DNA from: Epinephelus fuscoguttatus
Lineage: Eukaryota; Chordata; Actinopteri; Perciformes; Serranidae
Reading direction: 5' to 3'
Length of the DNA stretch: 64,000 bases
Assembly (NCBI RefSeq): GCF_011397635.1
Contig: NC_064761.1
Location: 26,019,643 to 26,083,642 of the forward strand
Shown here in pieces: positions 22,859-47,651 of the stretch; position 1 is the stretch's first letter, and every line of letters begins with the position of its first letter. Position numbers and translations under genes: made by a program. The notes under the pieces were generated by a model. The model saw only the letters and a program-made list of their open reading frames with translations, was not told where the DNA came from and searched no databases.

Positions 22859-23930
22859 CAGTTGCATCTAAAAAAATAGAATATCATGGAAAAGTTAATT
22901 GAAAGATTGAGATATAAAACTTGAAACTTTCATATATTCTAGATTTGTTAAACATACAGCGAAATATTTCAAGCCTTTTTTTTGGTTTTGATTTTGATGA
23001 TTACGGCGTACAGCTTATGAAAATCAAAAATCCAGTATCTCAAAATATGAGAATATTACATGAGAACAATCACAAAAAGGATTTATAAAACACAGGAATG
23101 TCGACCCTCTGAAAAGCATGTTCATTTTTGCACCTAATACTCGCACGGGACTCCTTTACCACGAATCACTGCATCAGTGAGGCATGGCATGGGGACAGTC
23201 AGCCTGTGGCACTGCTGAGGTGTTGTGGAAACCCAGATTGCTTTGATAGCAGCCTTCAGCTCATCTGTATTGTTGTGTCTGGTGTCTCTCATCTTCCTCT
23301 TGAAAATATCCCATAGATTCTTGATGGGGTTCAGGTCAGGTGAGTTGGCTGGCCAATCAAGCACAGTAACACCATGGTCAGCAAACCAGTTACTAGTAGT
23401 TTTGCCATCTCCATAAAGCTTGTCAGCAGACAGAAGCATGAAGTGCTCTAAAATCTCCTCAAAGATGGCCGTGTTGACTTTGGACTTGATAAAACACAGT
23501 AGACCAACACCAGCAGATGACATGACACCCCAAATCATCATTGGACTTCAATCAACTTGGATTCTGTCCTCATTGCTCTTCCTCCAGACCATGGGACCTT
23601 GATTTTTCAAATAAAATTCAAAATGTATTCTCATCTGAAAAGAGGACTAGAGACCACTCAGTCCACTGCAAACAGCCAGCCCTTTTAGCAGTGACATTCT
23701 GTGGGTTACCCTCCATGTGGACGGTGTCAGTGAGTGTCCTCTGTACAACTGTAAAGTCAGCAGTCTTCCCCATGATTGTTGCTGTATGTACTGAGCCAGA
23801 TTCACAGATCAAAGGTTCAGGAAACCTTTGCAGGTGTTTGGAGTTATTTAGCTGAGCAGAGCTCTTCTCAAGACTGCGTGGGTCACTTTCTGAAATAACT
23901 GACAAGAAATACTGAACTGAGATGCACCTG
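22859..23930 (-). mobile_element. Tc1/mariner-like DNA transposon, inactivated
   Basis: The minus strand carries two transposase remnants in different frames. The N-terminal part (23905-23618) has IMGKTADFTVVQRTL and, after an internal loss, the FSDEN motif of the catalytic core, then a stop. The C-terminal part (23541-23134) has MIWGVMSSAGVGLLCFIKSK, the DWPANSPDLNPI motif and a normal-looking C terminus. Compared with intact Tc1-like transposases, the piece between the N-terminal helix-turn-helix and FSDE is missing, the region carrying the second catalytic Asp (after YGD) is shortened, and a frameshift separates the halves. The left end CAGTTGCATCT follows a TA dinucleotide (22857-22858). 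The right end, read inward on the minus strand, is CAGGTGCATCT, so short terminal repeats bound about 1.07 kb. It cannot move by itself. Confidence 0.85.
23134..23905 (-). pseudogene. Tc1-like transposase pseudogene
   Basis: The degraded coding part of the element above: N-terminal remnant 23905-23618 and C-terminal remnant 23541-23134, separated by a stop and a frame change, with at least two internal losses that remove DDE-domain sequence. The conserved C-terminal DWPANSPDLNP motif makes the family assignment secure. Confidence 0.85.
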
Positions 23931-40294: not shown

Positions 40295-43200
40295 ATGTCT
40301 ACCGAGCAGGCCGAAAATACGAACGTGACCGAGAAAGCAGGCCAGCAGGCGCCTCCGCCGCAGCAGCAGCAGACGGGGTAAGTCCATTCATCGAGGTTCC
40401 TTTGTTGGCGCTTGCAACATAGCTAATCACAGAGTTAGCCGCAATTATTTATATCCATGAATGTCGTTCTTCGACCAGTCTCTCGTGAAAATGTTATATT
40501 AGTTGCATTCTTATGAGGCAATCATAGATGAAGGCCCAATGTGCATTTAAAGTTTGTTATAAAGCTGTGCGGTTATCCTCTGTTGGAGGTGTGTGTTTGG
40601 GACCCGTCTATTTACCGGAAGAACCCACCCATTTTACCGAACATAGAGTAGCTTAAGTTCAGAAGGCTACTTTTTAAATGTAAAATAAGTGTTTTATTTT
40701 CCATTTGATGGCATATATATATCTAAATTTAAAAGTATTATAACGTTATGTCAGTAACGTAACTGTAATTCAGGCCCACTACGTCCAAAGAGCGGCCTGG
40801 TCATGCGGCTTTAGTGCGAGTGTGTCGATGGCTAACAGTTGCAGACTTCCATTACAGCTTAGTGCATTGAAATTGTTTCTGCATAATACCTTTTTAAACA
40901 TGTTTTGGTAGGATCAGTAGGTGTAATACTGAGTTGTAACTCAAGTATTTAATTTTTTTTTTTTTTTTTTTTTTTTTGAAAAAAAGTTAATGAAAAGCTT
41001 TGGCCCTTCTGAAGAACAATGAATGAGCGGAAGTCCAAATGGCGCGGCCTGTGTTATGGTATTAAGTATTTTACCTTGTAACAAATAGCAGCCAGGTACC
41101 ACTAAATGTGCCTGCAGTAAAATTACTTATAGTTAAATGTCCCCAGAAGCTGTTTTTCTAGCTTTTGATTTCACGCCTGGCAATCTAATCATGCTTAATT
41201 CTTTGCATATGTGGGCTCGACTATAAAAGCATTTGATTTAATCATTATTAATTGATCTCTTTATACAGAGAAGTGAATGGGAAAGCCAAGCATGAGCCCA
41301 GTTCCAGCAGGAAGGAGAGGCCCCAGAAGAGAGGTGGAGGCGGTCGCTATGAACCCTATGGAAACGTGAACAAACGATACCGCGTGTTTGTCAGCAACAT
41401 ACCATACGATGTCAAATGGCAAGCTCTCAAAGACCTGATGAAAGAAAAAGGTAAGGTTTATGGATAAGGGATAGACTCAGTCAACTTTGGACATGATTAA
41501 ATAAAGATGCAGCATCCAGGGTCATTTTGTTGACCTCTGCTGCTCTGAAGGGCTTCTGGGAATTTGTGCAGACCCTTAAGTTGTACAATGTTGCTTGATC
41601 TCATGGGAGATATCTGGAACAAAGGTTTTGGACGAGGTCCCTCTCATTTGTCTGTCAACAAAGGAGTTGCTGCAGACTTGCACAAGTGCTTTGAACCTGG
41701 ATGTTATACTGAACATTTATTCTCCATCGAGATTACTAAAACCTATTGTGGTTTTGTGAAGTGCGGGTTGTACATGTTTAAAGCCGTCCATTACTGTGAA
41801 AACCCAATGGCTTGGTATCATGAGTGGCATATTGAGATGCTTTTCCCTGAAAAATGATGAAAAACGTACAGTACATTGCCGCAATGTAATGACTTTGCCC
41901 AGAAACAAGGGACGAGTTGCTCTCAGTTGTAACATCTAAGTAATGGTAAAAACCTGAGCTCTCATGATTTATAAATAATTAAAAATTTTGGAGACCTGTC
42001 AAACGATATCATTTGTGATGCAGCAACCTTCAGCAGGGATTAGCCTTAAGTTATCTTAAATGTGCAATATGGGTTTACATGTGCTGTTACTCATGTGAAA
42101 GTACTTGTAGTTATGGGGTATTGGAAAGTGTTTGATGTATTAAGTAATGCATCTCATTGGCATTTTCTTGAAGTTAAAGCATGTGTTAAGAAAGGTACAA
42201 TCCTTTTTCAGAAGGAGAGCCTGGTATTCGTTGTATTACAACTGACTGGAGTTAAATTGCATTTTCTCTTTTAGGTGTGACCTTGACAAGCAAATGTTTT
42301 CTCAGCAGATCTCCATGTTGTGCCAAACACGGCTATGCGTTGGGGATTTCTTTGGGGTACAGGTCTACAAAATGAAGCAACTTCTTATGCACTGTCCTTG
42401 TTTCTAGAGGTTTGGTCACTGATGTCCATTCGTTGAACAGACACGTGATCTGGAACGCAGGCGTGGCTGTGGTCGACGCTGAATCAAAATTCTGATTGTG
42501 CGCTTAAGGAACAGGTCCTCTTTAAGAACAGGATTGCAGTTAGATAAGTTTCTCTCACCTAAGAGCTTGCATTCATTAGGATTATGGTTAGTTTTCAAGC
42601 TGTAGGTGTCCTCATAGGCTCAGTTGATGGGCGAGTGAATGGATGCATCGGCCTGATGTTTAAAATGGCGACATTTCACAAAGTATGCACAGGTTTGCAA
42701 TGAAATGGACTGAGGTATTGAATGGGTTTTGCCTACTAGAAATTTTTGGGTTAATTTTCTTAAGGTAGAAGGTGGTGTTCACGGCATTATATACAAATAG
42801 GCAGGCTGATGGCCATCTCAACAGTTGTTGTCCTCAGTCTATTGCTTCTGGTGCTTCGGGAATTCCAACAAGGACAGGCTAAGAAGTCTTACTTTTTTTT
42901 AAAAGACCCAAGCTTGCTTTTTGTAGACCTGTACCATATTGTGCTGCTGCTGAGGTGCTGGGGGAAGGCGCAGGACTGGCAGTCTGAGCTCACTGTCACC
43001 GGCCACCCTACTTTTGTGTCTGCTCTAAACCCCCATTGTTCTCTCGGCTTCTCTCCCCTTGGTGTGTGTCGTCTCTGGAATCTGATTTGTAGTGGGTGAG
43101 GTAACGTACGTGGAACACTTAATGGACGCAGAAGGCAAATCGAGGGTAAGTGCAAATACATACAAATAAAACATGAATAATCCTAGACAAACCTGTGTTT

Positions 43201-46200
43201 GTCAGCTTTGGTGTCTTTATTTTCATTGTTGGGAATTGTTAAGCTTCAGAAACCTGGTGGGGTGTGTGAGATGTTGACATGCCGGAGGTGTGTTTATCTG
43301 GTGTCGTTTGTGGCACTGGCTTGAGGTCATCCCGAGGGTTGATGCCCTTTCAAAAGGACTTCAGCTTTGTAGCCAATCCTGTGGGATTGCAGTATCTGAC
43401 AATGTCCCTTTGGTTGCTGGATTTGCTCCTTGTGAACTAAAGGGGTCTAGTCTGCAAGAGGTTGTTACAAGGCTGTTAGATGGTCGTAAAATATAACTCA
43501 TTCCGTAGAACTGCTTCACTGGAAATGTTACCTCCAATATCTTAGTTGCGGGGAATCCTATCTCCCTGGATTTTCTGCCTTTTGGATGTTGGGGAAAAAT
43601 ACGCCGTAATATTCACCAGACTTGTCTGCATTGTGGTAGTGACTGAGAAAAAAAATGAGATGTCAAAATTGTAATTTTATTTGGAAGCACAGAGTTGTGG
43701 CCAAGGCTGTAGGCTTGTGTGATGAATTTTTGATTGTGCATGAAATTTTTTTTATTTTACTTGCATTTTGTGTCAATTTCAGCTTATATTATAACCATTG
43801 CTTTTACTAATTTGAATTACTGTTTACTCCTTTTGGTGCGGCCTGTTCTGATGTCTTCAATCAACAAAGGGTTGTGCGTAAGTAGTCTCTATTTATCTAT
43901 TATAATTTTCAATTGTTTGTGTCAGTGCTTCTCAGATTAACCAAATAGAAATGTTGCTATCCTGTTCACGTTAACCAAGCGAAAACACATGCACCGGTGT
44001 CCATGTTAAAGACAGATGTTTGGAGGGGGTAGTAGTTAAAAATCTGAGTTTGTTTATTTAGCTCACTCACAGGATATACTGTATATCTCTGTCAGTGTTG
44101 TTGAGTTTAGGACCGAAGAGCTAATGAGGAAAGCAGTGGAGAAGGTCAACAAGCACAACCTCAATGGACGACCACTAAAAGTGAAAGAGGTAGGCCACAG
44201 CAAAAATGAACAGAAAGACAAAGACCATAAAATGTGAGTTGCTGGTTTTCCTGAGTCATGTGTTCATGCTTTTTTGCCCAGGACCCTGATGGTGTGATTG
44301 CTCAAAGAGAAATGAACAAGGGTCAAGGTGGAGGCCCTCCAGGAGGCCACGGCGGGATGGGAGGAATGGATCGCATGAACATGGATCGAATGGGCCCTGG
44401 ACCAACTGGACCCATGGTCAATATTCCTCCTAGCCTGATGAACAACCCCAACATCCCCAATGAGATCATCCATGGTCTCCAGGCTGGCAGGATTGGCAGC
44501 ACTGTCTTTGTGGCTAATGTGAGACTTCCAGAGTTTTCCCACTGATTGTTTTAACTTTGCAAAAAAAGTATGTAGAAAGTATAGAATTAAGTCATATGAA
44601 GAGAGGCAGAAAATAGATTTTAGAAATTGCAGCTACTAAAGAAGTGGTGGTTTATTTGATTAAAATAACATTCCTGAATAATGGCTTCAACATTCTGCTG
44701 TAAATTTAATCAGTATTATTGTTTGCAAGAAACCTTAGTTACGTGTCTTTTTGCCTTAACCTGTAGATGGAACAAGTAACCAACCACCCCTAAAATTGTG
44801 TCTTGTGCCTACAGCTTGACTACAAGGTTGGCTGGAAGAAGCTGAAAGAGGTATTCAGCATGGCGGGCATGGTAGTGAGGGCCGACATTCTGGAGGACAA
44901 GGATGGGAAAAGCAGAGGCATGGGCACAGTGACATTTGATATGCCTATTGAAGCAGTCCAGGCTGTCTGTATCCTTTTCAAAGTGTTTGATTGGGAATCC
45001 CTTTGTGTTTTGTGTCCACAGAATGTTAATTCAGTAGAATCTCATTGATTCAAAATGTCTCTGGTACACTTTCCTTAATGATTTCACAGCTATGTTCAAT
45101 GGGCAGCTGTTGTTCAACAGAGTCATGCACGTCAAACTGGTAAGTTGATTGATCCTCACTGTACATTGGATCACACAGTGATTGCAGTGCATTGTCTAAA
45201 TGTATTTTTGGCTTTTCTTCAGGATGAGAAATCCCTGCCCAAAGATTTTGGACCACCTGACAACAGATCTGCTGCTCTTCCCCGTAAGTATACATGTAGT
45301 TTTTTTTTTTTTTTTTCCCTTCACTGGGGTAAAAAAAAAAATAAAAATAACAAATGCCCTATGAGTATAAAATCAATTAAATTACTTAAGGAAAGGTCAG
45401 TGTTATAATCTCAGTATTCTTGCAAGTAAATGTAGTTCCTTCAGTTTGGTGCAGAACTACATCAGTTATTTGTTTTGGGTGGAGAGTAAAAACACCCAGG
45501 TAGCAACAGTGACACCATTTGCCACTCATAATAAAGTAAATACCTGCAGTATTGATACCGTAGGTATGAGTTTTTTGTTTGTTTGTTTTTTAAAGACATT
45601 TCCTATGTAGACTATTTTCATACTGTAACCATTTTCTTTTGCTCAGGTGGCCTGAGTGGTATTGGTTTGGGACTTGGACCTGGTGGTCAGCCCATTGATG
45701 CTACCCAGCTCAACAGAGGAGGTGGTGGTGGTGGAGGAATGGGCAACATGGGCCCTGGAGGTAACCAGCTCAAATGTTGTTTTGTTTAACTCTTCAATAA
45801 AAGACACCTGTAAAAAATCTGGGGCTTATACATTACTCTTCTTACTTGTAGGAATGGATGGCATGGGCTTTGGCAACATGGGAGGTCGTATGGGAGGCGG
45901 TGGCGGCAGCGGAGGAGGTATGTTCTGAAGGTCTTAAGTAGCTTGGTTGGTTAAGTATTTACCCCAACTTCTGCAATTACTGTTAAAGCCAAAAAACACT
46001 TCGTGTAGCTGTATCATTTGAGACACTTTCCACGGTTCATAGTATAATTCAAGTACCTGAAACTGTTACTGGGAAACATTTGCGACAAGTTTTTAACTTG
46101 GTTACAAATGGCCTAACAGTCGGAGTGCAGCAAAAATTCTATTTGTATAAATAATAAATTATATTTTACAACCCAGATCCTGCATCATAAAGGCCTGAGA

Positions 46201-47651
46201 TATCCATACCCAGCCTGTCCATCTAGCTCTGTTTGTGCCCTCATTAAGACTTTTCTTTTTGTTCTAGGAATGGACAACTTTGGAGGAATGAACAACATGG
46301 ATCGTTTTGGCTCTTCAGGAATGGGCAGAATGAACGGTAAGGAGAGATTTTAAGATGTATTAAACACTCCAAAGCAAGCGTGGAACAATCTCACGTTTGC
46401 CGGCTATTTCTAATGGTTTCATCTCTTGCATTGTCAGAGATGGACCGTGGGATTGGTGGTGCTTTTGACAGGGAGTTTGGGCGAAATGAAATGGGAATGT
46501 CTCGCAATAGTTTTGGAGAGTCCTTTGAAAGAGGAATGGGTTAGTATTTTAAGGATTTTGTTGGAAATCCCTGTGATAGGCCTCATCTGTTGTAATGCTC
46601 ACTTTTTCTAAGACAGTTGCTGCAACCTTTTTATTTATTGTTTCTTTTATTAATTTGCTTGTATAGGAAACTCCATGGGTATGGACCGCATGAGCTCTGG
46701 AATGGACCGCCTGGGAGCCAGCATTGACCGCATGGGTGGGATGGATCGGATGGGCATGGACAGGATGGACCGCGGGTCTGACCTGGACAGGCTGGGTTCT
46801 GGGTTCGACCGGATGGGCTCAGGGATGGACCGGCTGGGGCCCAGTATGGACAGGCTTGGACCTGGCCTGGACCGTATGAGCTCCAGCATGGACCGCCTTG
46901 GCCCAGCTGGGTTTGACCGCTTAGGCCCGTCTGGTTTGGATCGCATGGGTTCTGGCCTGGACTTTGGCTCCCCGATGGGTATGGATCGCATGGGCAACAC
47001 CGGGCTTGACAGAATGGCCAGCAGCTTCGACCGCATGGGCTCTGCCGCAGGACTTGACCGCTTCTCCGCCGGTGGCCTTGACCGCATGAGCTCTGGCATG
47101 GATCGGATGGGATCTGGAGGTGTTGGTGGCCAGTTTGATCGCTCTGCTGACATGGATCGTGGATTTGGTGGTAATTCCTTTGGCGGAGCTGGAGGGGCTG
47201 GAACTGGAGGAGGCAACATCAGGAAGGGATGTCAGATCTTTGTCAGAAATGTAAGTATTTATCTGCAGCGTAGTAACTTTAATTAATTTGAGTGTCTTTT
47301 CTCTCATGATTCTAATTAATTTTGAATCATTTTTGTTTTTCAGCTGCCATTTGACTTCAACTGGAAGATGCTTAAGGACACCTTCAACACATGCGGTAAA
47401 AGCATCCATAGTTTGTTCATAAAAGATAAATTATTGTATGCATTTTTACATTTAAATGACTGAACATTAATACTCTTCCCTCTGCAGGCATGGTTCAGTA
47501 TGCTGATATTAAGATGGAGAACGGCAAGTCCAAGGGCTGCGGCGTGGTTCGCTTCGACAGCCCTGAAACTGCTGAGCGCGTCTGCCGGACCATGAATGGC
47601 TACCGGCTGAATGGAAGAGAAATTGACGTTAGGATTGATAGGAATGCATAA
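40295..47651 (+). CDS. hnrnpm: heterogeneous nuclear ribonucleoprotein M (complete, 16 coding exons, 690 aa)
   Basis: hnRNP M is a nuclear pre-mRNA-binding splicing regulator with three RRMs. Coding exons: 40295-40377, 41269-41450, 43093-43145, 43870-43877, 44096-44189, 44282-44518, 44815-44968, 45090-45139, 45223-45283, 45647-45760, 45852-45917, 46268-46336, 46438-46539, 46667-47250, 47344-47395, 47488-47651. They sum to 2073 nt in one frame. The protein has a short acidic/Gln-rich N terminus and a basic PY-type nuclear localisation stretch (KRGGGGRYEPY). RRM1 has RNP2 VFVSNI and RNP1 KSRGCAVVEF; RRM2 has VFVANL and KSRGMGTVTF; RRM3 at the C terminus has IFVRNL and KSRGMGT-like KSKGCGVVRF. 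Between RRM2 and RRM3 lie Gly/Met-rich linkers and the DRM/DRL repeat exon. The paralogue myef2 is the main alternative; the long methionine repeat favours hnrnpm. Only the combined exon set, including the 8-nt exon, keeps the frame. Confidence 0.93.
41451..43092 (+). other. hnrnpm: hnrnpm intron 2
   Basis: The longest hnrnpm intron, 1.64 kb. No exon, transposon or convincing snoRNA was recognised. An ATGATGA followed about 95 bases later by CTGA (41857-41956) lacks a terminal stem. Confidence 0.6.
43870..43877 (+). other. hnrnpm: hnrnpm microexon (8 nt)
   Basis: GGTTGTGC lies between an AG (AACAAAG) and a perfect GTAAGT donor, with a branch-point-like TACTAAT at 43805-43811 upstream. Exon 3 ends in phase 0 at AGG (43145) and exon 5 opens with T-GTT-GTT-GAG-TTT (44096). 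Only insertion of GGT-TGT-GC joins them as Gly-Cys-Ala-Val-Val-Glu-Phe, the expected RNP1 sequence. Without it the frame reads Cys-Cys-stop. Confidence 0.9.
46667..47250 (+). repeat. hnrnpm: hnrnpm exon with about 18 DRM/DRL repeats
   Basis: This 584-nt exon encodes a degenerate tandem repeat of roughly seven residues built on (M/F/L)DR(M/L)G, for example GMDRMSSGMDRLGAS. About 18 DRM or DRL units can be counted, plus DRG, DRF and DRS variants. Mammalian hnRNP M has an analogous run based on ERMG. The exon ends with a Gly-rich stretch and RRM3 RNP2 (IFVRN). The repeat makes a 189-codon open frame on the opposite strand that is not a gene. Confidence 0.9.

Follow-up and report, generated by a model that had tools for sequence, protein, structure and literature searches.

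A predicted frame-critical 8-nt exon with an unusually weak AAG acceptor in hnrnpm of Epinephelus fuscoguttatus and in its myef2-like paralog

The stretch of DNA analysed here (hereafter, the window) comprises 64,000 nucleotides of contig C10 of the Epinephelus fuscoguttatus genome, which was searched as 1.05 Gb in 26 contigs. It contains the hnrnpm coding region on the plus strand (40295-47651), consisting of 16 coding exons with 690 codons plus the stop. The 690-codon product possesses three RRM stretches (Pfam PF00076, RRM_1) and, in the C-terminal half, hexapeptide M/D/R repeats of the hnRNP M kind, of which 19 are found with a relaxed pattern and 11 with the strict pattern. Three RRMs followed by a C-terminal run of such repeats are taken to be the hallmark of hnRNP M, and it is by both features that the product was assigned to this family. 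Elsewhere in the window, an open frame on the minus strand (23137-23547) with DWPANSPDLNPI resembles the end of a Tc1/mariner transposase, judged by the motif.

Exon 3 of hnrnpm (43093-43145, 53 nt) ends in phase 0 at GGCAAATCGAGG, where AGG is followed by gtaagt. Intron 3 (43146-43869, 724 nt), with the borders gtaagt and aaag, leads to exon 4, an 8-nt microexon GGTTGTGC located at 43870-43877 with aag before it and gtaagt after it, and intron 4 (43878-44095, 218 nt, donor GTAAGT) separates the latter from exon 5 (44096-44189, 94 nt), which follows tcag, begins with TGTTGTTGAG and carries the stop codon encountered when exon 4 is skipped. All these features are on the plus strand, and introns 3 and 4 are both above the median intron length of the gene (127 nt). 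The original prediction had placed the end of exon 3, the 8-nt exon with its AG and GTAAGT flanks and the start of exon 5 at these very positions, and all of them hold. No pairs of inverted repeats were detected in the region 43093-44189.

When the microexon is included, the joined frame is GKSRGCAVVEFRTEE and the RRM1 peptide reads GKSRGCAVVEF. Exon 4 alone supplies Gly-Cys and two bases of the Ala codon, and together with the first base of exon 5 it encodes the Gly-Cys-Ala of the RNP1 strand of RRM1. With these residues RRM1 matches the Pfam model with a score of 65.4 bits, and its RNP1 region aligns to gkskgcgvvkf of the solved hnRNP M RRM entries 2dgv and 2dh9. The third and fifth positions of RNP1 are usually occupied by aromatic residues stacking on RNA. 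If this consensus is applied, RRM1 has Cys and Val at the two positions, and RRM2 (GKSRGMGTVTF, residue 250) and RRM3 (GKSKGCGVVRF, residue 649) likewise have no RNP1 aromatics. The earlier description of the product of this exon as the RNP1 strand that contacts RNA is thus right about the strand and needs qualification about the contact, and the translated frame shows the microexon to encode the first part of this strand, minus the usual RNA-contact residues.

Direct joining of exon 3 to exon 5 gives ...GKSRCC-stop, i.e. Arg-Cys-Cys and a stop, exactly as had been foreseen. The stop falls at codon 109 and precedes the exon 5-6 junction by 85 nt; 11 junctions follow downstream, the last of them after 1574 coding nt, so that the stop is premature and lies well before the last junction, as is characteristic of essential exons. 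Retention of intron 3, of intron 4 or of both leads to a stop as well. Nonsense-mediated decay (NMD) is the expected fate of a skipped transcript of this kind, and the microexon would therefore formally act as an ‘essential exon’.

The protein search of the genome, performed with hnrnpm residues 1-328 as a query, gave 12 matches, with 44 of 44 first-look candidates scored, and revealed a paralog on the minus strand of contig C2, exons 2-9 of which were modelled. The protein encoded there is presumably MYEF2, which is paralogous to hnRNP M in vertebrates. Exons 3-9 of the paralog have lengths of 53-8-94-192-154-50-61 nt vs. 53-8-94-237-154-50-61 nt in hnrnpm. Exon 4 of the paralog, GGTTGTGG (C2:37824798-37824791, minus strand), is also 8 nt long, is preceded by ccaag and followed by gtaaga, and lies in the same phase as in hnrnpm. 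With this exon the joined frame of the paralog reads GKSRGCGVVEFKDD, and without it SRCGGVQR followed by a stop. Both exons are internal, have canonical AG/GT borders and are far shorter than the 27-30 nt taken as the upper limit for microexons. The two genes share 7 of 8 bases in exon 4 (too few for any claim of extra constraint), as compared with 42 of 53 for exon 3 and 60 of 94 for exon 5. Since hnrnpm and the myef2-like paralog both have the 8-nt exon, the comparison argues that it is real and predates the duplication, and if the C2 protein is MYEF2, the exon would also be older than the fish-human split.

As for the other matches, the only one crossing the junction residues (contig C1, 28% identical) appears to belong to another RRM protein having no RGCAVVEF and was discarded. 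A retrocopy on contig C4 was considered as a natural cDNA and likewise rejected, as it starts inside exon 7 and so does not cover the microexon region. This 5′-truncated myef2-like retrocopy (about 5407-5750 of C4, minus strand) comprises exons 7 to about 11 without introns, contains an internal stop and is preceded by a sequence of repeat-like appearance. A search of the genome for a processed copy spanning joined hnrnpm junctions, with up to 3 mismatches allowed, gave 0 matches, and collections of prokaryote and virus contigs contained no relative of the locus, as expected for such collections.

Another feature seen in both genes is intron 7. In hnrnpm this intron (44969-45089), which interrupts RRM2, resembles introns of the minor (U12) type by the consensus, with the donor GTATCCTTT and TTTCCTTAATGATTTCACAG before exon 8, the respective sequences of the paralog intron 7 being GTATCCTTCT and TTCTCCTTGACTC. 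The strict TCCTTRAC motif is absent at hnrnpm intron 7, and GTATCCTTT is the sole exact match in the window, yet 35 of 100 shuffles also contain one.

Splice sites were scored with a matrix derived from the sites of the two genes themselves, each of them being left out in turn and the two microexons never being used for training. The matrix, which differs from standard splice models, was built from 20-21 sites, and the exclusion of the microexon sites lowers their scores somewhat. On this scale the microexon acceptors are the lowest two of the 23 modelled (-8.4 in hnrnpm and -1.4 in the paralog, the next being 0.5), and 332 of the 444 other AGs in the hnrnpm unit score at least as high as the microexon acceptor. 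Both microexons have an AAG acceptor, with CAG or TAG at the other 21 of 21 modelled. The donor of the hnrnpm microexon scores 6.8, which is the twelfth lowest of 23, and has the consensus GTAAGT on the intron side and C as the last exon base. The T fraction before the acceptor is 0.31 at positions -20 to -5, the lowest of 15 exons, and 0.47 at -60 to -21, i.e. the strong acceptor and the T-rich stretch 5-20 nt upstream that mark constitutive microexons are not found here.

The acceptor is preceded by an AG-free zone of 85 nt (43783-43867, plus strand), and the corresponding zone of the paralog has 91 nt; these rank third and second of 23, the longest being that of hnrnpm exon 3 (102 nt). The zone contains TACTAAT at 43805-43811 on the plus strand, which precedes the acceptor by about 59 nt and could serve as a distal branch point; this is the only TACTAAY of the unit, and at the window rate a stretch of 85 nt would be expected to hold 0.009 such motifs. 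A branch-point candidate in the ordinary range is represented by CTGAT at about -19. It is possible, judging from these elements, that the branch point is located farther upstream than usual and that the first AG is reached by scanning, and the weak AAG acceptors behind long AG-free zones leave room for regulated skipping. The microexon acceptor is outscored by one at 43783 (-7.6 vs. 2.7), which with the same donor would define a 95-nt form of the exon (43783-43877); this form runs into a stop at codon 110 and might represent a poison exon. Near the candidate branch point, TAAC and ACTAAT (43792-43811) resemble a QKI binding site. UGC occurs at -33, -71 and -108 relative to the microexon, and no RBFOX motif was found within 120 nt on either side of it.

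With an acceptor this poor, it had to be considered that GGTTGTGC is a chance match and that the real transcript is assembled otherwise, and in addition the 16-mer AGGGTTGTGCGTAAGT has one other copy in the 1.05 Gb genome, on contig C12. However, when every AG between exons 3 and 5 was paired with every GT 1-400 nt farther on, 1152 possible cassettes resulted; the frame is restored by 82 of them, and an RNP1-like string, RGCAVVEF, is rebuilt by 43870-43877 alone. In 5000 dinucleotide shuffles of 43146-44095, an 8-mer coding for Gly-Cys-Ala with AG/GT flanks appeared in one shuffle and, when a GTRAGT donor was required, in none, while a looser RNP1-like 8-mer with the same flanks appeared in 32. 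The AG-GGN-TGY-GC-GT pattern has a single site in the 64-kb window, which is the microexon, and none on the minus strand. The presence of the same exon in the paralog also speaks against coincidence, which we regard as extremely improbable. The proposal that a frame-critical 8-nt exon supplies the Gly-Cys-Ala of RNP1 is borne out by the joined frame, by the unique cassette and by the paralog. The second exact copy of AGGGTTGTGCGTAAGT itself (C12:37921147-37921162, minus strand) lies on a contig without an hnrnpm-like protein match and is probably due to chance.

The frame can also be kept by routes that bypass the microexon. Among the acceptors to which exon 3 could be joined directly, seven stay in frame, six of which score no more than 0.3 and one of which, 44073, scores 10.4; in addition, an alternative donor of exon 3 at 43105 (score 4.2) keeps the frame when joined to exon 5, with the loss of 40 nt of exon 3. 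The original prediction that the exon must be included is therefore correct as regards the stop upon skipping and too strict in view of these acceptors and this donor. The acceptor 44073, in which cacag is followed by GATATAC, would add 23 nt (44073-44095, plus strand) and give R-DILYISVS-VVEF without the microexon. It might be suggested that this is a productive isoform, DILYISVS replacing the GCA of RNP1, and that it yields an RRM1-impaired hnRNP M without being an NMD target. The frame is open, no other in-frame direct acceptor scores above 1, the acceptor of exon 5 at 44096 itself reaches 10.9 when its sequence is part of the matrix and just 5.0 when left out, and the Pfam match of the RRM persists, falling from 65.4 bits with the microexon to 47.8 via 44073 (and to 40.8 via the weak acceptor 44106). 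The suggestion is nevertheless an unlikely one: the conserved RNP1 residues are lost, if one of the CTCAC motifs shortly upstream serves as the branch point, it would lie too near to this AG, and the paralog has no upstream bypass acceptor in the interval searched, which starts 20 nt past exon 4 and takes in about 60 nt of exon 5. Due to the fact that its 5 in-frame bypass acceptors are weak (scores of -0.9 or lower) and all located inside exon 5, the 44073 route is probably incidental. A second 8-nt cassette at 44073-44080 (RDILVVEF) was rejected because it leaves a 15-nt intron.

The reading we prefer, with a probability of roughly 0.93 judged from the sequence of the two genes, is that the 8 nt at 43870-43877 form a frame-critical coding exon in hnrnpm which is common to the myef2-like paralog and older than the duplication. 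The microexon would be included in most transcripts, its recognition presumably being helped by the GTAAGT donor and by the downstream intron (218 nt, and 97 nt in the paralog). Scanning for the first AG would lead to the pyrimidine-poor acceptor, perhaps from a branch point farther upstream than usual (TACTAAT at 43805, with CTGAT at about -19 as an alternative), and transcripts missing the microexon would be destroyed by NMD. It is a known kind of feature, old and frame-critical, with an unusually weak acceptor; what is new is the copy of the exon in the paralog and the unusually weak AAG acceptors of both copies.

An autoregulatory switch, also envisaged in the original prediction, would add to this explanation and does not exclude it. 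According to this hypothesis, which is plausible and partly anticipated in print, hnRNP M binds the GU-rich intron 3 of its own pre-mRNA and blocks the microexon acceptor, the skipped transcript being degraded in a negative feedback; we consider it possible, with odds clearly below even. The GU-richest 200 nt of the hnrnpm unit (43190-43389, plus strand) begin in the intron just upstream of the microexon and contain 26 G/T-only hexamers vs. a unit mean of 6.6 (sd 4.9), which makes them a candidate hnRNP M binding region. The acceptor is the weakest in both paralogs (the lowest two of the 23 modelled), and low T next to it with more T farther out is the pattern of alternative micro-exons in a vertebrate survey (PMC4317164). 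Human HNRNPM is described in PMC8346284 as binding GU-rich intronic elements and preventing aberrant exon inclusion, and a figure legend of the same paper mentions an HNRNPM eCLIP track over its own gene. In PMC6547761 an essential exon of human HNRNPM is listed as a plausible candidate for alternative splicing coupled to NMD (AS-NMD) with a dPsi of -0.13, and a precedent is given by the non-triplet essential exons of C. elegans fubl-1 and fubl-3, which autoregulate (PMC13247117).

On the other hand, the 100 nt on each side of the microexon centre rank no higher than the 82nd percentile for GU and are surpassed by exons 3, 10 and 13; the peak is absent from intron 3 of the paralog (3.4 vs. 6.4 per 100 nt in hnrnpm); hnrnpm intron 7 is GU-richer (7.4 per 100 nt); and 1.3% of the plus-strand 200-nt windows are equally or more GU-rich. 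As introns 3 and 4 make up about 1/8 of the unit, the peak could land there by chance. The human candidate has a q of 0.7, and the text of PMC6547761, as far as it is accessible, does not name which HNRNPM exon is meant. Slightly more tentative still is the suggestion that the 8-nt essential exon with its weak AAG has been kept in hnrnpm and myef2 since before the duplication as a level sensor, in which rising hnRNP M or falling microexon-splicing capacity would lead to decay. An example of such capacity might be PRPF40A, which is needed for microexon splicing (PMC11463390).

In the accessible parts of PMC8652244, PMC12179342 and PMC11463390 there is nothing bearing on an 8-nt exon of hnrnpm. 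Among the literature matches listed, as represented by titles and the beginnings of abstracts, no 8-nt exon of HNRNPM or MYEF2 is named, and the combination of MYEF2 and microexon gave no matches. Exons of 8 nt are easily overlooked by aligners and annotation pipelines, and in this case the omission would make the gene of a splicing regulator look broken. Public gene models presumably include the exon. If its poor recognition is used for control, the level of a splicing repressor would be tied to the capacity of the cell for tiny exons, with a feedback point in two genes.

Neuronal microexons dependent on SRRM3/4 are mostly in-frame optional inserts. The hnrnpm exon is similar to them in size and differs in its length of 8 nt, which is not a multiple of three, and in the lack of an RBFOX motif within the 120 nt mentioned above. 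About 81% of micro-exons were found to be constitutive in the vertebrate survey of Li et al. 2015, where constitutive micro-exons are said to have strong acceptors and a T-rich region 5-20 nt upstream, and alternative ones to be poorer in T within that region and richer in it at distances above 20 nt (PMC4317164). The hnrnpm microexon is like the former in being a tiny coding exon needed by the protein and unlike them in its weak acceptor and the lowest T fraction of the gene, although our values come from our own matrix and those of the survey from MaxEntScan and a U2AF2 motif. In these respects it resembles the alternatively spliced group of that survey, though its coding role demands inclusion. 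The long AG-free stretches before the acceptors, 85 and 91 nt, are reminiscent of exons with distant branch points as presented in PMC1431707, but they are below the 100-nt cut-off for ‘large’ used there, and an ordinary CTGAT is present at about -19. With the essential exons of AS-NMD described in PMC6547761 and PMC13247117, the exon shares a non-triplet length, an early stop before many junctions and location in the gene of a splicing regulator, and for human HNRNPM an ‘essential exon’ has already been proposed with low confidence (PMC6547761). The hnrnpm exon differs from these in being only 8 nt long and known here from sequence.
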